Source: Oehlia diaphana (lineage: Eukaryota; Glomeromycota; Glomeromycetes; Glomerales; Glomeraceae). Taken from it: a DNA stretch of 64,000 bases. The notes under the pieces are model-generated. The model did no database searches. It had not been told where the DNA came from and saw nothing but the letters and a program-made list of their open reading frames with translations. Both the position numbers and the translations under genes were made by a program. The stretch spans positions 78,833 to 142,832 of the forward strand of contig QZLH01000088.1 in assembly GCA_003833135.1 (NCBI GenBank). Direction: 5' to 3'. Shown here in pieces: positions 37,202-56,633 of the stretch. Every line of letters starts with the position of its first letter. Position 1 is the first letter of the stretch.

Positions 37202-40200
37202 ATGGAAGGAAGTTCAAGTCAGGTAAATTATAATTTTAAGTAATATTAAATATTTTAATTAATTAAAAGTTGTATTTATAATATTTTTATAAATATGTAG
37301 AGCGGAAGTTCTTCTAGTAATACTGTTCCAGAAATTCACGACTCTGCTTTTTCATATGAAACGGCTTCGCATAAAAACTTCTTCAACAATAGTATTCTTT
37401 TAAAATTAGAAGAGGATGGATTTACAACTCCTGATGAAAAGGCAAAAGAACTTATTAAAGAATTGACCGACATAAAATATTTATCTTCATTAAAATTACT
37501 TTTTGAAAATTTACAAAATGAATTTTCACCTCGAATTCTTCGAGACACTTTAGTTGCCTTAGCGGATCCGACCCCATTCGATTTTTATGAAAAACAAAGT
37601 GTGGCTATATTGGAGTTACATTTAAGAACTTGGGTAACAGTCTTAGAAAGGATATGCTTTTCGCCAATAGTACTTAGTAAAGAACTTCGAGATAAAGTTT
37701 ATGATTCTTTATCAAAATTTGCAGAAATTCATCGTAAAACAACACAAGTTAATGAAATAGGACTTGATAATAATTTTAGATCAAATTTTAACCAATTCAA
37801 TCAACAAAGCAATAATCAAGATGATCAAATTACAGCCAAAAAGCGTAATTATAACATTGACTTCTTGTTAATCCACTTACGAGACACACTCCATAGTTTG
37901 CGTGATGATGAAACTTGGTTTCAAGAAATTATACGAAGAACTAAAGAATTACTTAAAGCTGCATTGAATATTACCCCAGGAGTTTTATCAGCAGCAGGAG
38001 TCGCTCTTCCAAATGATAATTGTTCAATCTTATCAATGCTTACACAAATACGCAAAAGCTTAAGTTTTAAATATCCAGTAGCACCTTATTATGTAGATTG
38101 GAGAATTATGCTGATGATTCAACATAATCTTTTTACTTGGTCTGAAGGTACTGAAATGATAATTAGTAAAAAATTCTGTGAATTGATATTAATGGAACAT
38201 CTTTGGAGCTTTTTGGAAAGAGAATGGATTGACGTAACTAATAAATCTATTTTAGATTCTCAAACAAAATTCGATGAAGTATCAAATAAAGTTACTAAAG
38301 CTTTAAAAAACACTGGAAGTTTCTTAAATGATCTCGCTGGAAATGAACCTATTGCATTACCACATACTTTATGGTTTGGAATATTGGATCTTGCACAAAA
38401 CCTTATTCAAAAATCTACTCAAACTTCTACATATGGTCTTTGTTATTATTTAGCAATTGAATCACTTAATAAAGCTCCAAGTAGTTTCATTCAATTTAAA
38501 GCAGTTGAAATTTTATTACATTTACATAATATTGATAGTAATATGTTTTCAATGATTGAGGATGATTTTGATCAATATATAAAAAAATTAAATGAAAATA
38601 AATCATCAGATTTTTCAGAAAAATTTCAAAATTTATTATTATTTATTAAAGAAAAATATCTTGAAGACTTAAAAATTTCAAGTGAAAATATTGGAAAAGA
38701 AAAGAAAGGAAAAGGAAAAAGTTTAAATAAAAATTCATATTTAAAAAGAGAACAGGCATCTAATTCTGATGTTATAGATATTATAGCAAATGAAATGACT
38801 TGTCCAGTTAGTAGTGAACCAGAGGATCAATTATGTATTTTAAAATGTCAACATATATTATCATTAAATAATTTAAAATTATTAAAACGAAAAATTTGTC
38901 CTAAATGTCGAGAAAAAATTGAAGAAAATGATATCAGATATTTACCACAAAATTCTATTTATAAAAATTTATATACTAAATTTTCTGAATCTGGACATAT
39001 TATACCTCCAATTAAATTAGAAAATTCAGATCAAATATATGATAGTGATGATTCAGATAATTCAGAAGCTGATCTTATATTAGCTAAAAAGAAAAAATCT
39101 ATAAATTCAATTATTAAATTAAATTCAAATATATCATTATCATCAATACTTTCAAGAAATTCAAAAAAACAACATCCAACATATCAAAATATTATAAAAG
39201 AAATAAATGAAAAACATTATGAAAAAGCTGAATCATTGTGTAATGAATTTTTAAAATTTTTTCCTAAAAGTTATTCTTTAAGATGTATTTTAGGTTATAT
39301 TTATAGATGTCTTAAAAATTATGAACAAGCACACTTCTATTTAAAAAAAGCCATTAATTTAAAACCAAAAGAACCAATTGCTTATTTAATTCGTGGAGAA
39401 ATATTTTTTTGGCAAAGTAATTATAATGAAGCAATAAATAATTTAGAAAAATCAAAAAATTATAAGGCTAAAATAAATAACTTATATATAATACTTGGAA
39501 ATAGTTACTTATTTTGTAATAATTATGTTGATGCATATTATTATTATAATATTGTATTAAAAAATAATCCAGATAATTATTTATGTTTTAAGCATAGAGC
39601 ATATAGCCATGAAAAGCAGTATAAGTTTCCAGAAGCTTTAAAAATATTAGATAAACTGCTGAATACCAACAAGGATGATTCTTTAATTTTATGTTATTAT
39701 GGAGAAATTTTATGTAATATGAAACAATATAGTAAAGCTATATCATATTTTACAAAAGCAAATGTTATTGATCCAGAAAATACTCATAATTTAAATAAGA
39801 GAGCTATTACATATTATAATATTCAAGATTATAATAAAGTTTTATTAGATCTTGATAAAGTTATACAATTAGATCCATTAAATAGTTTAGCATATTATTT
39901 CAAGTGTCTAACTTATTATACAAAAAAAGATATTGATAATGCTATAATGGTATTTAAAAAGTGTAAAGAATTATTAGATTTTAATGATACATTAGTAGCA
40001 AAAATTCAACTATTTCATCTGGAATGTTTACTGAATAAAAATAATTCTACAGAATTAAATAATATATTGACAAAAATTAATCAAATTTCTAATATTAGAG
40101 ATTATAAATTATTAATTTTAGTTAGATGCAAAGTATATGTAGAATTAAAAATGTATCATGAAGCAATGTTAGACTTGAATTTGTTATATGATAAATCTGT

Positions 40201-47144: not shown

Positions 47145-49829
47145 AAAAAAGAGATTTTAGCAATCAATAAAATTTACAGTACTTTTAATTATAAATTTTA
47201 TAAAGCAATCTTTATTTAGTATTTCATTAACAATTATTTTCCAAATAATTTTATCAAACTTCTTAAAATATAGCATGGGCAAATTTAAATTAAGATCTTC
47301 ATTTTTTGAACTTATTGTCTTTTCTGATAAACTAAGAAATTCAAAGTTGAAAGATTTACCACAATTTTTGAAAATTTTAAAATGCATGATAAATACATTC
47401 ATTTACCTATTTATGTCATTTTCCTGAGGTTGATGAAGTTCGCTATTTAAATTTACCAGACTTGATATAAAATAAACTTGTGATTCTAAAATAATTTATT
47501 ATAAATAATCAATAATATTAATTATTAAACATTATAAGAAATTATTAATAAATTAAACATTCTTACTTTCATATATGTATTTACTAATTTCATTAACAAT
47601 TCCAAGTTCGGAAAGATCATTATTGTTATTTACATTTAAATAACCAAAAATCTGTGTATTCTTGTAATAAATAAATGTATGAAATATAATTAGAATTATA
47701 ATAATTTTTACTACGTAACAAGTTCAAGTCTAACATTGCTTCATAATACATTTTTAATTCTACATATACTTTGCATCTAATAAAAAGTTGTAATTTACTA
47801 TCTTTAATATTAGAAATTTGATTAATTTTTGTTAATATATTATTCAATTCTGTAAAATTATTTTTATTCAGTAAATATTCCAGATGAAATAGTTGAGTTT
47901 TTGATAATGTATCATTTAAATCAAATAATTCCTTATACTTTCTAAATACCATTATAGCATTATCAATATCTTTTTTTGTATAATAAATTAGACACTTGAG
48001 ATAATTTGCTAAACTATTTAATGGAACCAATTGTATAACTTTATCAAGATCTAATAAAACTTTATTATAATCTTGAAGAGTATAATATGCAATAGCTCTC
48101 TTATTTAAATTATGAGTATTTTCTGGGTCAATAATATTTGCTTTTGTAAAATATGATATAGCATTATTATATTGTTCCATATTACATAAAATTTCGCCAT
48201 AATAGCATAATATTAAAGAATCATTCATATTTATATTTAGCAGTTTATCTATCATTCTTAAAGCTTCTGAATACTCATACCTCTTTTCATAGCTACATGC
48301 AATATTCTTAAGACATAAATAATTATCTGGGCTATTTTTTAATGCAAAATTATAATCATGATTTGCATAATAATATTTATTAAATAAGTGATTATTTCCA
48401 AGTATTATATATAAGTTATTTATTTTAGCTTTATAATCTCTTGATTTTTTTAAATTATAAATTGCTTCTTCATAGTTCATAGTCACTTTGCCAAAAAAAT
48501 ATTTCTCCGCAAATTAAATAAGCAATTGGTTCTTTTGGTTTTAAATTAATGGCTTCTTTCAAATAAAAGTGTGCTTGTTCATAATTCTTTAGACATCTAT
48601 AAATATAACCTAAAATGCATCTTAAAGAATAACTTTAGGAAATAGGAAACAATTTTAAAAATTCTTTACACAATAATTCAGCTTTTTCATAATGTATTTC
48701 ATTCATTTCTTTTATAATATTTTGATATGTTGGATGTTTTTTTTTGAATTTCTTGAAAGTATTGATGATAATGATATATTTGAATTAAATTTAATAATTG
48801 AATTTATAGATTTCATCTTTTATCTAATATAAGATCAGCTTCTGAATTATCTGAATCATCACTATCATATATTTTATCTGAATTTTCTAATTTAATTGGA
48901 TGTGAAATATATCCAGATTCAAAAAATTTAGTATATAAATTTTTATAAATAGAATTTTGTGGTAAATATCTGATATCATTTTCTTCAATTTTTTCTCGAC
49001 ATTTAGGACATATTTTTTGTTTTAATAATTTTAAATTATTTAATGATAATATATGTTGACATTTAAGAATACATAATTGATCCGCTGGTTCACTACTAAC
49101 TGAACAAGTCATTTCATCTGCTATAATATCTATGACATCAGAATTAGATGCCTGTTCTCTTTTTAAATATGAATAACTTTTTCCTTTTCCTTTTCCTTAC
49201 TTTTCTTTTCCAATATTTTTACTTGAAATTTTTAAGTCTTCAAGATATTTTTCTTTAATAAATAATAATAAAGTTTAAAATTTTTCTGAATAATCTGATG
49301 GTTTATTTTCATTTAATTTTTTTATATATTGATCAAAATCATCTTCAATCATTGAAAACATTTTACTATCAATATTATGTAAATGTAATAATATTTCAAC
49401 TGCTTTAAATTGAATGAAACTACTTGAAGCTTTATTAAGTGATTCAATTGCTAAATAATAACAAAGATCATATATAGCAGTTTGAGTAGACTTTTGAATA
49501 AGGTTTTGTGCAAGATCCAATATTCCAAACCATAAGGTATGTGGTAATGCAATAGGTTCATTTCCAGCGAGATCATTTAAGAAATTTCCAGTGTTTTTTA
49601 AGGCTTTAGTAACTTTATTTGATACTTCATCAAATTTTGTTTGAGAATCTAAAATATATTTATTAGTTGCGTCAATCCATTCTCTTTCCAAAAAGCTCCA
49701 AAGATATTCCATTAATACCAATTCTTTACCAATTATCATTTCTGTAAAAAGATTATGTTGAATAATCAGCATAATTCTCCAATCTACATAATAAGATGCT
49801 ACAGGATATTTAAAACTTCAGCTTTTACG
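47145..49829 (-). pseudogene. Dead RING/TPR copy, 3' part
   Basis: Homologous on the - strand to about 38052-40755 of the intact gene: QHNLF...SFLEREWIDATNKY, the RING-like module MTCSVSSEPADQLCILKCQH (49112 down to about 48940), the TPR array (48486-47626) and the start of the C-terminal exons. The frame is broken by indels at about 49740, 49200, 48800 and 48490. Homology stops at about 47145, where a truncated kinase tail abuts. Upstream it stops exactly at 49829, the edge of a transposon; the missing 5' part continues at 55725. Confidence 0.9.
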
Positions 49830-50132
49830 AGCATGAGCGAAATTCTATATGACCCCTATTGTTACACAATTATTTATATTAAATTTACAGTACAACGTAT
49901 ATCAAAAATACGCAGTTATAAGGTTATATAATTTTTTTACTAAGTAACTATCGACGATACTTTACACAACCGTTCTTTAGCTTGTTAACTTTCGTTCTCT
50001 TTGCCCTGATCCAGTCTGATTCAGTGTTTGAAGGTTTTGGCTATAGAACATATAATGCCAATACCTGATAGGTTGGAAGTTAATAACCCTTATATTTATG
50101 AATAGTGAAAAAGAAACTGATAAACTTTTATT

Positions 50133-50877
50133 NNNNNNNNNNNNNNNNNNNNNNNNNNNNNNNNNNNNNNNNNNNNNNNNNNNNNNNNNNNNNNNNNNNN
50201 NNNNNNNNNNNNNNNNNNNNNNNNNNNNNNNNNNNNNNNNNNNNNNNNNNNNNNNNNNNNNNNNNNNNNNNNNNNNNNNNNNNNNNNNNNNNNNNNNNNN
50301 NNNNNNNNNNNNNNNNNNNNNNNNNNNNNNNNNNNNNNNNNNNNNNNNNNNNNNNNNNNNNNNNNNNNNNNNNNNNNNNNNNNNNNNNNNNNNNNNNNNN
50401 NNNNNNNNNNNNNNNNNNNNNNNNNNNNNNNNNNNNNNNNNNNNNNNNNNNNNNNNNNNNNNNNNNNNNNNNNNNNNNNNNNNNNNNNNNNNNNNNNNNN
50501 NNNNNNNNNNNNNNNNNNNNNNNNNNNNNNNNNNNNNNNNNNNNNNNNNNNNNNNNNNNNNNNNNNNNNNNNNNNNNNNNNNNNNNNNNNNNNNNNNNNN
50601 NNNNNNNNNNNNNNNNNNNNNNNNNNNNNNNNNNNNNNNNNNNNNNNNNNNNNNNNNNNNNNNNNNNNNNNNNNNNNNNNNNNNNNNNNNNNNNNNNNNN
50701 NNNNNNNNNNNNNNNNNNNNNNNNNNNNNNNNNNNNNNNNNNNNNNNNNNNNNNNNNNNNNNNNNNNNNNNNNNNNNNNNNNNNNNNNNNNNNNNNNNNN
50801 NNNNNNNNNNNNNNNNNNNNNNNNNNNNNNNNNNNNNNNNNNNNNNNNNNNNNNNNNNNNNNNNNNNNNNNNNNNNN
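50133..50877. other. Assembly gap (745 N)
   Basis: Run of N inside the transposon. It hides the end of the transposase-like gene. Confidence 1.
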
Positions 50878-53829
50878 ATTATAACATGTCCGATGATAAC
50901 CATGTCCACAGATCAATATATCGCTAACGTTATTTAATATAGTATCACATGCGTCACAAACATTTGGTTTTGGAGGATGTCCTGTATGATACCCCATTGG
51001 TAAATTTTTAATGTCTACTTGCTGATCTAACGTAGCAAGGTAATAGGTTGTAGGATTTTTTTTTCTTTTTCCTTTCGTATCAAATGCATGACTACGATTG
51101 AGATTTTGGTAAAGCTTGTGAAAATATTGTAACAAAAATAAACTTGTTTTATTTGTTAGGAAATCAAGCTTTGATGGAGTATAAGGATAATGCCGATGTG
51201 TTTGATATGTTTCTTTAAATTCATCTAAAACGTGAGAATTTTTACAAAATTTTAATTTTTTTAATGTTTTTGAATTGAAAATAATTTTAAAACACTTACC
51301 AATTATACATGCCTGTTTAATAATATCATCAGCACTTGCATTTATAGATATACTTGTTCAAATTTTGCTATGCATATTTTCTACTGGATAATCATTAAAA
51401 TTAGGTAAAAACATTTTTATTGTTTCAAGAAAAGGATGGTTAATATCTTCCCAATAAAAAATATCTGACAAAAATAATAATGGTGCTTTATTATAATTTT
51501 TATGCTTCCAACGTAATGCAAATGTCCATATACGAAAAATAGTTTCAACATATTCATTGAACGAACCCGAGCGAAAAAGTATTGCATATACATCAAGAGT
51601 TGCCGGAATCAAATTATCTAATAAATCAAGCACCATTTGGTATTCAATATCTTTACATATAGACCTGAATCTATTTTTTATAGTTGTTCTAATTTTTATC
51701 CATCCACTATATGCTAATTCTAATAAAAGATTTATTCTCCAAGGCTTAGGCTTCTTTGCTAGTTTTACGCGTTCTCCAAAAAGAAAATGAAACAAAAGTT
51801 TAAAAAATGAATAATGCACCAGCATTATTTGTTCTCTACTGTTAAGTGATACATGTAAGGGTCCAAGAATTGGAATAAAAGATTGTATATTAGATGGAAT
51901 TGGATTTCTTGTTATTTGTGCTTGTTCATTTAAATGAACTAAGGCTTTTCGAATAAATAATTGGCCTGGCCAATCTGCAACAACTGGGGCTACATAACCA
52001 TTAAGGTGTGTATTGTTGCTACTTTCTAAAATTATTTTTAATGCATTTATGTAGTCTTGCATTGAATGTAACTGTTGTTCTTTCATTCCAACTAGACGCA
52101 TATTTTTCATTGATCATTCATCCTTTTTTTCTAAAATAGCATTATCGTAGCTATGTACTGTAAGTAATTCAATACGATCAAAACTGATAAGTTCCATTTT
52201 TTGCTGAATCCATTCAAATTTACGTTCAGTGTATGATTTATCAAAGATTCCGTAATATTTATGAATTAAATGATAATTAATATTATATGCATCTACATAT
52301 GCAGGATTGTGAATTGAAGCACCATTATAAGTAATAGGAATTTGTGGGCAGCTAGTAATTTGTTTACTTATGCATGTTGCCATATGATGAGCTGTTGAAA
52401 GCCAAACAGCATCGGGTCTTCTTTTTTCTTTAATTGAATGAAAATCATCTACATTAAATACATATAAAAAATTACTCTAGTAAAAGAATGCAAAGCAAAT
52501 CATTAATATTACAATTATTATTAAAATTACATGTTTAATGTACTGTATATTTACATTTTTTTGAAAGTATTCTTTTATACTAATTTTATGATTTCGTGCA
52601 ATTTTTGTTTTATGTAAATCAACTGTTCTTGCACATACTGATACTCCGATTTTATGCATTGTATCTATAGATTCATTAGTTGATCCAGTAGAATCTAAAA
52701 ATAATCCAATATTTAATGCAAATTCTTTAGCAAACATATTTTGTTGTGTTGCCATAATATAACAAATTGCTACAATTTTTTTCTTTGCTTCTTTGCTGAA
52801 CGTTGTTACCCCTAATCACGTGTGGAGTTACAATTTACTGCGCCAAAAGATCATGTGGAAAATTAAGATCTACTGCGTCTAACTGTGCCAAGCCGACCTA
52901 GCCGCAGCCATCCTAGCCTATTATTTTTATTATATTTATTATATTAATTATATTTAATATTAACAATATATTTATTTTATTTATTATATTTATTATACTA
53001 GTTATATTTATTAAATTAGTTATATTACTTATATTTATTATACTTATTATATTTATTATATCTTTATATGTAGTAACTTTTATATAAATAACGTTGGTAT
53101 TTTCCTTCGTTAAAGAAGTTCCTAAGTTCCAATTAGTTTGTAATCAGTTCCTATAAAGTTCTATAATAAAGTATAACCTTTTACACTATAAACGAACTCC
53201 CTACTTTAAGCGTGTCTTGTTTGATTGGATTTCAGTCATAGTTAAACGTACTTAATCTCCCTGACTGCAAATCATAGTTAATCTATTCAACGTACCGAAT
53301 CGGTTAACAACGTGTATTAGGTATTATTGCATTAACCATCATATCAAAAAATCCTATTAAACGTGGATCTGTTTCCTCAATCATAACCTTAAATGCTGCT
53401 GGATTTAATAATAAACCTGCATGATCTTTTCGCTGTTTTTTACGTAAAACTTCAGTAAGTAATGGTATACATTTCTGAAAGTCTAAAAATAAATGTTAGT
53501 CAATATAATCATAATATCAAATATTGCTATCTTTAATTATTTAATTTACCTAGTGTAATATGATTTGCAAAATTTCTATTGCATATTCTGTAATTTTCTT
53601 TATTATCAATATTTGTATTCTCATTTTTTTTATACTTAGTATAACGGTCTGGCTCACAAATTTCTAAATAATGACTATGACAAAGTTGAAGTCCAACTTC
53701 TATATTGTAATTATTATAAGTTTTTTTGGCTATTGCCTTATTTTTACAATTTACTGTAAAAGTACGAAAGCGGTTTGTAGATTTATTGCATTCTGCTATA
53801 GCACAAGGACCCAAGTTTTTTTTTGTCAT
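50878..53829 (-). pseudogene. Transposase-like protein: zinc finger, DDE-like core, RING-like end
   Basis: Read from ATG 53829. Exon 1 (53829-53550) has a Cys/His cluster, CAIAECNKSTNRFRTF ... LCHSHYLEICE, a likely DNA-binding zinc finger. Exon 2 (from 53482) runs LLTEVLRKKQRKDHAG, is cut by the solo LTR, and resumes in frame at 52799 (MATQQNMFAKEFALNIGLFL, DSTGSTNES) to 52555. The next exon starts at 52476 (SNFLYVFNVDDFHSIKEKRR). Conserved-looking blocks follow: VAPVVADWPGQLFIRKALVH, PILGPLHVSLNSRE, AKKPKPWRINLLLELAYSGW, DLLDNLIPATLDVYAILFRS. Two TGA stops interrupt it, near 52112 and 51358; the second could come from CGA by CpG decay. A RING-like CDACDTILNN..ICGHGYHRTC precedes the gap. The DDE assignment rests on LFLDSTGST and VVADWPGQ being Asp-bearing strands; this is inference. 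Confidence 0.65.
52804..53309 (+). mobile_element. Solo LTR inside the transposase gene
   Basis: Begins TGTTACCCC and ends GGTTAACA, flanked by ACGT on both sides (52800-52803, 53310-53313; AACGT is also possible if the end is one base shorter). Removing it with one ACGT joins the transposase frame exactly (MMVNAIIPNTRSAKKQRKK). It has a TATA-like TATATAAATAA and an AATAAAG on the + strand and no coding. Its inner part is a TTATATTTAT-type simple repeat. Confidence 0.85.
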
Positions 53830-53863
53830 AGTTAGCAAAAAAGTTAAGTTATTTGAGGAGACG

Positions 53864-54101
53864 ATCTACCCCAGTAATTTTTTCACCCCCACGTGACTTT
53901 GGCCGGCATTATGAGATTTGGCTGGAATTAAGAAATTAACCATGTGACGAATAACGAGTGACAAATAGGATTTTAGACACCGAAAAAAATCTGTCCCCAG
54001 AATACTTATAAAAAATGAGAAAGTGGAGGGGTGTGACATGGGTGACAAATTATTTAGGGTCACGTGGGGGTGAAAAAATTTTCTGGCGATACTGGGGAAG
54101 A
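53864..54101. mobile_element. MITE with 10-bp target duplication
   Basis: Flanked by TGAGGAGACG (53854-53863 and 54102-54111). The copy of the same region at 55594 onward lacks the insert and has the sequence once. Ends are inverted: ATCTACCCCAGTA at the left and TCTTCCCCAGTA in reverse at the right, then TTTTTTCACCCCCACGTGAC in both. A 9-10 bp duplication suggests Mutator-like mobilisation. About 238 bp, no coding. Confidence 0.85.
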
Positions 54102-54354
54102 TGAGGAGACGCGTAGCGTCATGTGATTGTTAGCCAATCATATTTATACTGATCAAAATGATCGACAGCCAATTAAAAACACTTTCTCTCATGCTGTTTT
54201 TGAAAACTCGAGTTTAGTTTTGCACCGCTCTTGGGCGGTTTGATTATAGCGTAGTTTTAGATAATGTTCGACTTCTTTATGTAGTTCTTATTTATCTTTC
54301 TGTAATCTAGTTCACATGGTTATAAAAATAAAATCGAGTTTAGTTTTGCAAAAC

Positions 54355-55494
54355 ATGTCTTCGCCTGAGTATTACCCTGGTTACTTTGGTTAGTCCCGTG
54401 GCTCAATCTGCTATCCAAATTTTTTCTTCTAAACTTATGACTTTTCAGCTCTTCTTGATTACATGAACGGGAACACAAGTTGGTCGTATTACGAGTTTTT
54501 AACCCTCTACCATGATGTGATTGTATCTTCACCTCCGTTTTCGGATGAGTGGACCGGACTCGACGGCACCTGGACACGCAGGTTTCTAAAAAAGCAGAGG
54601 ACCTCAGACCAGAAGAACTTGAGGATTTAAAGGTCAAGGTATCTTTTTATCTTTTTCTCTTGTTTAATCAAGGGAGCTCCTGATCAGTCTGCGTCCTGAT
54701 CAGGAGTATCAGTCTGCGTCCTGGCCCAAGTGATGGTGGTGCACTCTTGATCAGTCTGCGTCCTGACTCAAGAGTATCAGTCTGCGTCCTGAGCTTCACC
54801 ATTGCGAATCTGCATTTTCTTGGTTATTTGTTGTAAGCTCGCCATTGTATTGTTTTCGTTAACTTTTACTTTCCATTATTGCCTCTCCTGCAACAGGTGG
54901 AACTTGAACGTTCAGGCAAAGGGTTACAGACCTATTGGGAGGGTGTGATCCATAAACGGAAGAAGGTAATTTAAACTTTTTATATCACTGCCCTTTCATT
55001 CTTATTGACCTTGATCAATATGTAAAATAGTTGGAAGTGAAACGCACTCACATTCTTGGAAGCCTTCGTCTTTTAAATGATGCCGGAAAATATAATGTTG
55101 AAGATCTCTCGTCGGAAGGATTCTCGAACTCTTTACCCATTGATGCATCATCCACGTCCAAACACACTTTAGATAGCACAATACCAGTTTCTTCCAAGAG
55201 AACTAAGAAGGTTAGTACAAAACACAATTTGTAGATAACACAAAAATATCACTAATATTTTTTGATATTTAGGTTAAAAGTAATAAAGATGGATCTCTGG
55301 AAAGTTCGGAACAACGTCTGCAATATTCGCCTCATGATACGCAAAATGCCAGAGATGATTATACACCACCCCCTCCTTACTGTAACAATAAACGTAGCGC
55401 TGAATCAAATGAACACGCTTTAGATAATTTGGTAGTAAGTGATATAGAAGTGATTGAAATAGATGAGGAAGATGAAATCAAGAATCTTACCGAG
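54355..55494 (+). pseudogene. Divergent second gene in the transposon, unknown family
   Basis: Exons 54355-54388, 54449-54638, 54897-54965, 55031-55210 and 55273-55494 have clean GT-AG borders. Protein pieces: MSSPEYYPGYF, ALLDYMNGNTSWSYYEFLTL, VSKKAEDLRPEELEDLKVK, VELERSGKGLQTYWEGVIH, VKRTHILGSLRLLNDAGKY, and an acidic end EVIEIDEEDEIKNLTE. Exon 2 needs one frame change between about 54545 and 54580, so it is damaged or spliced in a way I cannot see. The gene is cut at the single n near 55535. It starts about 0.5 kb from the transposase-like gene and points away from it. Function unknown; the basic middle and acidic end would fit a nuclear protein. Confidence 0.5.
54673..54798. repeat. Two hairpins with identical loop in an intron
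   Basis: Hairpin 1: CTCCTGATCA (54677-54686), loop GTCTGCGTCC, TGATCAGGAG (54697-54706). Hairpin 2: ACTCTTGATCA (54743-54753), the same loop, TGACTCAAGAGT (54764-54775, one bulged C). Each is followed by TATCAGTCTGCGTCCTG. The stems differ in sequence but still pair, while the loop does not vary. Four copies in all of ATCAGTCTGCGTCCTG. The region lies in intron 2 of the gene above. Confidence 0.85.
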
Positions 55495-55534
55495 GTATTT
55501 TGGTATTTGCTCTATTTTATGTATAGTAACTATC

Positions 55535-55724
55535 NGCTATAGCACAAGGACCCATGTATTTTTTTTGTCATAGTTAGCAAAAAAGTTAAGTTATTTGAGG
55601 AGACGCGTAGCGTCATGTGATTGTTAGCCAATCATATTTATACTGATCAAAATGATCGACAGCCAATTAAAAACACTTTCTCTCATGCTAATGATCGACA
55701 GCCAATTAAAAACACTCTCATGCT
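55535..55724. repeat. Repeated transposon right end after a single n
   Basis: From 55536 (GCTATAGCACAAGGACCC) the sequence repeats 53797 onward without the MITE. The final 39 bp (AATGATCGACAGCCAATTAA ... CTCATGCT, 55652-55690) is then tandemly copied with a 4-bp deletion (55691-55724). GACGC-GTA-GCGTC forms a small stem near 55600. The single n probably marks an assembly join. Confidence 0.85.
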
Positions 55725-56633
55725 GCTTTTACGTAATTGAGTAAGCATTAATAAGATTGAACAATTATCATTGTTTTTTTACTATAGATCTTATATCTGT
55801 AAATTGGCACTCTGTACTGGTTTTTCTTTGATAAATAAATATGCGCTCTGCGCCTTTTGCCTACCAAAAAAAAAAAAAAAAAAAAGATTGAACAATTATC
55901 ATTTGGAAGACCAACTTCTGCTGCTGATAAAACTCCTGGGTAATATTCAATGCGGCTTTAAGTAATTCTTTAGTTTTTCGTATAATTTCTTGAAACAAAG
56001 ATTCATCATCACGCAAACTATGTAACGTGTCTCATAAGTGGATTAATAAGAAGTTAATGTTATAATTACGCTTTTTGGTTATAATTTGATCTATAACTAT
56101 TATCAAGTCCTATTTCAATAACATGTGTTGTTTTACGATGAATTTCCGCAAATTGTGATAAATAATTATAAACTTTATCTCAAAGTTCTTTACTAAGTAC
56201 TACTATTGGCGAAAGGCATATCCGTTCTAAGAATCACACTTTGTTTTGCATAAAAATCAAATGAGGTCGGACCGCAAAGGTAACTAAAGTGTCTCGAAGA
56301 ATTTGAGGTGAAAATTCATTTTGTAAATTTTCAAAAAGTAATTTTAATACATATAAATATTTTATGTCGGTCAATTCTTTAATAAGTTCTTTTGCCTTTC
56401 GATCGGGAGTTGTAAATCCATCCTCTTCTAATTTTAGAAGAATACTATTGTTGAAGAAGTTTTCATGTGAAACCGTTTTATATGAAAAAACAGAGTCGTG
56501 AATTTCTGGAATAGTATTGCTTGAAGAACTTCCACTCTAGGTATTTATAAAATTATTATAAACTCAATTTATAATTAATTAAAATATTAATATTATTTAA
56601 ATTATAATTTACCTGACTTGAACTTCTTTCCAT
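55725..56633 (-). pseudogene. Dead RING/TPR copy, 5' part
   Basis: Homologous on the - strand to 37202-38060 of the intact gene, from its ATG (56633) and short first exon (MERSSSQ) through exon 2 to the transposon edge. It has frameshifts (for example near 56260 and 55935) and stops such as TTTGAGATAAAG and CTTATGAGACAC. A retroposon with poly(A) interrupts it at 55773-55885. Together with 47145-49829 it makes a nearly complete duplicate. Confidence 0.9.
55773..55885 (+). mobile_element. Short poly(A) retroposon
   Basis: About 93 bp followed by a run of 20 A, flanked by the 20-bp direct repeat AAGATTGAACAATTATCATT (55753-55772 and 55884-55903, overlapping the A run). The sequence outside the repeats is continuous with the RING/TPR gene. 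An AATAAA lies shortly before the tail. This is the signature of target-primed reverse transcription of a polyadenylated RNA. No pol III boxes are obvious, so a truncated LINE or mRNA end is likelier than a classical SINE. Confidence 0.85.

Follow-up and report, generated by a model that had tools for sequence, protein, structure and literature searches.

Mutator-like elements (MULEs) produce target duplications of 9-11 bp and are related to the IS256 family, of which ISCth4 is a member. The P element carries an N-terminal THAP domain and usually duplicates 8 bp of its target, while RAG1 is a RING-bearing recombinase. According to PMC12730594, which covers the duplication lengths of fungal superfamilies, hAT duplications are usually 8 bp, with variants of 5-7 bp reported; those of KDZ elements are 7-8 bp; and those of the CMC/Transib/RAG1 group are 2-5 bp, with termini that are mostly CA..TG. 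The same paper counts 24 superfamilies in Repbase. Here we describe a 5,895-bp insertion in a 64-kb stretch of contig QZLH01000088.1 from Oehlia diaphana (the whole stretch analysed, hereafter the window). The insertion is likely a dead copy of a family of DDE (Asp-Asp-Glu) DNA transposons, most likely of the cut-and-paste type, that belongs to an unplaced lineage. The element ends, a 9-bp target duplication, an empty site, conserved D, D and E residues, and copies without a single difference at separate genomic positions are all observed; the core fold is predicted.

The insertion and its relatives in the genome

The stretch from 49830 to 55724 is a transposon insertion inside a host gene. 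Its limits are set at these positions because a pair of GCTTTTACG copies flanks the ends:

49821..49829, + strand: left target duplication GCTTTTACG, exact sequence match
49830..55724: whole insertion, 5,895 bp, ends AGCATGAG...CTCATGCT
55725..55733, + strand: right target duplication GCTTTTACG, exact sequence match

The 64-kb window contains only these two copies of GCTTTTACG and none of its complement. For the 56 AGCAT/ATGCT pairs in the surrounding 8 kb, chance alone would yield about 0.0008 exact matches of 9 bp; one is found. A paralogue of the host gene elsewhere in the window (37504-38574) supplies an empty site: it continues across the insertion point, where it has a single near-identical target, and is 91% and 78% identical to the two host flanks. 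The preliminary description had fixed the ends by a 9-bp duplication and by the interruption and resumption of host homology, and both kinds of evidence hold at these borders.

The genome searched comprises 108.8 Mb in 1,672 contigs. The intact protein matched it at least 61 times on 29 contigs, a lower bound given that 49 of 87 candidates were scored. Copies on three contigs (C141, C562 and C772) are identical across a 3,592-bp element with an open frame of 933 amino acids. Two of these, C562 and C772, have different flanks, complete 9-bp duplications (TTATACACA and TTACAATAT, respectively) and perfect 14-bp inverted ends; the C141 copy begins at the contig end. Another relative, on C1541, is 3,273 bp long, with exact AGCATAGGGAAAGTTT ends of its own and an exact 9-bp duplication, CCGCTGATC. 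Further copies in the genome with 9-bp duplications, of the kind the preliminary description had called for, are found at C562, C772 and C1541. The duplication matches at eight of nine positions in the C971 copy and in a 589-bp copy on C1574 that has the left end of the window element (94% over 80 bp), and paired ends are present without a target duplication on C65, C122, C302 and C411. A border scan blind to the known ends returned the same borders at three of five loci and nothing at the other two. The intact relatives look to have been recently active.

Four short elements with AGCATAGCGGACAT ends were also observed. Three of them (L063, L064 and L065; 609-1,116 bp) have these 14-bp ends exactly and no target duplication, and the fourth (L066) has a duplication matching at eight of nine positions.

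The interrupted host gene (49275-49817 and 55904-56300) is a member of a repeated family, with 26 DNA matches in the genome when its own locus is counted and one copy nearby, the paralogue at 37504-38574. A Pfam scan of one piece of this gene family gave no match. Beside the transposon, the stretch 55750-55903 of the host gene is a short A-tailed insertion between 23-bp near-identical repeats (22/23), resembling a short interspersed nuclear element (SINE) with its target duplication.

The window copy and its doubled right end

What the window holds is a dead pseudogene, broken up by two TGA stops, a nested 506-bp insertion and an N gap. Its features are as follows:

50133..50877: N gap of 745 bp, covering the 3' end of the gene
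50878..50961, - strand: RING-like end, six of eight ligands ahead of the N gap
50879..53829, - strand: transposase pseudogene, from the ATG at 53827-53829 to the N gap
51358-51360 and 52114-52116, - strand: in-frame TGA stops in the sequence of the pseudogene
51379..51381, - strand: third conserved acid, E of PVENMHS, from alignment to relatives
51853..51855, - strand: conserved His of GPLHVSLNSRE, from alignment to relatives
51973..51975, - strand: second conserved acid, D of VADWPGQ, from alignment to relatives
52444..52449, - strand: first conserved acids, DD of FNVDDF, from alignment to relatives
52477-52554 and 53483-53549, - strand: introns of the pseudogene, with GT...AG borders
52804..53309: nested 506-bp repeat, ACGT at either side, missing in the C168 copy
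53671..53805, - strand: N-terminal finger, sequence pattern C-x4-C-x35-C-x2-H
53864..54102: nested 239-bp miniature inverted-repeat transposable element (MITE) with ATCTACCCCAGT ends and its own 9-bp duplication, GAGGAGACG
54112..54195: first right-end copy, 84 bp identical to 55606-55689
54196..55534: segment separating the two right ends; contains a SINE-like repeat as well as a gene-like fragment and stops at a single N (55535)

The main pieces of the gene align collinearly with the relatives, and what appeared to be two frame breaks are the introns. The stretch matching the 745-bp N gap is about 230 bp long in the C168 copy. Portions of the nested 506-bp repeat recur elsewhere in the genome, and the MITE lies upstream of the transposase start codon, its empty site being visible in the second right end. 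All the motifs that the preliminary description quotes can be read in this copy, as can its N-terminal Cys/His finger and RING-like end. The LFLDSTGST motif, which it had singled out as an Asp-bearing block, is not catalytic, and its Asp is not conserved among the relatives.

An element of this kind does not normally include the sequence at 54196-55534 or a second right end; these adjoin a single N at 55535, and the sequence at 54196-55534 may derive from capture or from a scaffold error. It deserves serious consideration that part of the window element is an artefact of assembly, 54196-55534 having been joined in by a scaffolding error at that N, though we put this somewhat below an even chance. 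The single N at 55535 and the presence of right ends identical over 84 bp on both sides of the stretch point to such an error. Against it, the outer ends retain a perfect target duplication, and both borders therefore belong to one insertion. Within the stretch, a 112-bp SINE-like repeat at 54222-54333 accounts for 37 of the 40 matches listed. This repeat, taken as 54207-54350, is flanked by an 18-bp near-identical repeat. Also between the right ends, a plus-strand gene-like fragment with intron-like gaps (54433-55500) is possibly captured host sequence.

Predicted fold, distribution and zinc modules of the transposase

A first predicted structure of a family member was too poor to use (predicted local distance difference test, pLDDT, 67.9), and a wider alignment gave a second with a pLDDT of 88.5. 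In the latter, a large helical insertion separates strand 5 from the final acidic helix of an RNase H-like core, and the conserved Asp, Asp and Glu lie at the expected places of this predicted core. The model thus combines the two general marks of a DDE transposase, an RNase H-like fold and three conserved acids. Hermes (hAT) and the P element are the two nearest solved folds and ISCth4 the third, with RAG1 and Transib also among them; a search of a viral fold library returned nothing at E <=0.001. The preliminary description had named two outcomes that would count against it, the lack of other copies in the genome and the lack of an RNase H-like core; other copies were found, and the predicted structure has a DDE core.

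Three protein searches gave 111, 162 (120 listed) and 106 matches, with at least 238 distinct proteins among the matches listed, many of them metagenomic. The closest named proteins are from Rhizophagus irregularis (99% identity), from which the host can be inferred to be a Rhizophagus or a close relative, and the genera Rhizophagus, Gigaspora, Acaulospora, Diversispora, Entrophospora and Ambispora are represented among the matches listed. The other named matches listed are Rhopilema esculentum (P0228), which we take to be a jellyfish, one contig of a metagenome-assembled genome (MAG) that probably bears the wrong label, and one EukProt record. By these records, named relatives are nearly all from Glomeromycotina, plus one jellyfish. 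The jellyfish-type proteins have the core in common with the family (hhalign 100%, 454 columns) and stop short of the RING in an 11-sequence alignment.

Of the 238 retrieved proteins, 111 carry a finger of the form C-x(2-7)-C-x(26-39)-C-x2-[HC]-Y, the remainder including fragments. When 18 finger sequences were compared with Pfam, three showed a weak likeness, to GATA fingers only (best E 0.005), and none of the 18 had a THAP match at E up to 1 or a BED match; a finger profile search likewise gave no significant match. We take the spacing C-x(2-4)-C-x(34-39)-C-x2-[HC] to be THAP-like, and a THAP identity for the finger was considered and dropped because no profile match was found among the 18 sequences.

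At the other end of the protein, the eight zinc ligands of a RING (C-x2-C...C-x-H-x2-H-x2-C...C-x2-C) are complete in the C1541 relative. Among relatives longer than 600 amino acids, 62 of 95 fit the strict pattern; the other 33 include shortened or variant ends and three jellyfish-type proteins. The best solved RING relative found by profile against the PDB is the E3 ligase RNF38 (E 0.0004), and Pfam RING models stayed below their curated cut-offs in the window pieces and 19 relatives. Public records name several relatives 'RING-type domain-containing protein'. The C-terminal RING proposed in the preliminary description holds up in many fungal members; the jellyfish-type members lack it. That it acts as a ubiquitin ligase is a guess.

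We propose that a single protein performs transposition. The N-terminal zinc finger would probably bind the element ends. The RNase H-like DDE domain would cut at the AGCAT...ATGCT ends and join the element to the target, whose strands are staggered by 9 bp, most likely by cut-and-paste rather than copy-out. The C-terminal RING of many fungal members would probably be regulatory, acting either like a ubiquitin ligase or through protein contact.

Placement among transposon superfamilies

By predicted fold, the family stands with the hAT, P, IS256 and RAG/Transib transposases. It joined no sequence family among those compared and is therefore filed as unplaced, probably a superfamily-level lineage of DDE transposons; the comparison consisted of Pfam scans of 19 relatives, four NCBIfam scans and a test against MULEs. 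No transposase model matched in the Pfam scan of the window pieces and the 19 relatives, nor in the NCBIfam scan of four proteins. The 38 chains that the family profile returned from solved structures are zinc proteins, of RING or other type, with no transposase among them, and a single phmmer search against solved structures gave one chance match. The DUF6589 model, tried for a likeness in motif order, had no match in the genome, its control having no match anywhere as well, which leaves this result uninformative. No title or abstract describing the family was found among open-licence papers. The preliminary description had not placed this protein in a named superfamily and had suggested kinship with Mutator, which is unsupported.

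KDZ elements are, like this family, DDE transposons of fungi. They differ in their 7-8-bp duplications, against 9 bp here, and the KDZ model (PF18758) matched the genome only at C1154, which is not a family locus, and none of the 19 relatives. RAG1 and Transib differ in having 2-5-bp duplications, the RING lies at the opposite end in RAG1, and the ends AGCAT...ATGCT are unlike the CA..TG termini of most of the CMC/Transib/RAG1 group. The C(2)C and H(3-4)H motifs that this group has between the second D and the E were not seen, by eye, in the 11-sequence alignment.

It is unlikely that the family is a very divergent branch of the hAT or P superfamily. Hermes and the P element are its top two folds, and the predicted RNase H core has, as in hAT, a helical insertion, placed after strand 5 and before the last acidic helix. 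However, the duplications are 9 bp rather than the usual 8 bp, many members carry a RING, and the finger matches neither BED nor THAP. Further, the hAT dimerisation model (PF05699) has at least 150 matches listed in the genome (150 of 273 candidates scored), none of them at family loci; here and for the other Pfam models, match positions and family loci were compared by eye.

Still less probable is a divergent MULE, the relationship suggested in the preliminary description. The 9-bp duplications at the window, C562, C772 and C1541 fit the MULE range, and the third-best fold, ISCth4, is from the MULE-related IS256 family. Against this, the MULE model (PF10551) matched the genome 137 times (150 of 166 candidates scored), never at a family locus, and the inverted repeats of 14-16 bp are short for a MULE. 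Comparison by hhalign with six MULEs of the same genome gave probabilities of 0.1-0.3%, against 0.1% for reversed MULEs and 99.7% and 100% for positive controls. Because this profile comparison stayed below 1%, the suggested kinship comes down to the 9-bp duplication.

The idea of a host RING gene lying merely between chance repeats, which the database names of several relatives would favour, can be dismissed given the predicted transposase fold and the fact that several copies of the gene lie within mobile-element borders; it is refuted for the bordered copies, and single copies could be domesticated.

Beyond the unplaced DDE family itself, a wider proposal stands in our view at about even chances. 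The family would be an unnamed eukaryotic DDE superfamily with 9-bp duplications, present in Glomeromycotina and at least one jellyfish and recently active in Rhizophagus, whose fungal branch acquired, at the end of its transposase, a fused RING module resembling a ubiquitin ligase, with which it would control its own dose or its host. If so, the annotation of its gene as 'RING-type domain-containing protein' would explain why the family goes unnoticed among unclassified repeats. According to PMC11075540, two-thirds of Rhizophagus irregularis transposable elements were unclassified, and DNA elements were retained during curation if they matched one of 19 known transposase models; as described there, a family without such a match could therefore be missed by design. 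Such copies can now be annotated from the ends, duplication length, alignment and fold, and activity can be tested with the identical intact copies. A transposase carrying its own RING also invites comparison with RAG1.

A search of viral contigs found no relative, and one of prokaryote genomes found a single relative (L078, VBAS01000141.1), on a 4,276-bp contig with a Bacteroidetes MAG label, 24% GC and no proper element ends found on it, which is probably fungal contamination. In a EukProt protein (P0238), a transposase piece is joined to a NIF3-like domain, through either a fusion or a gene-model error.
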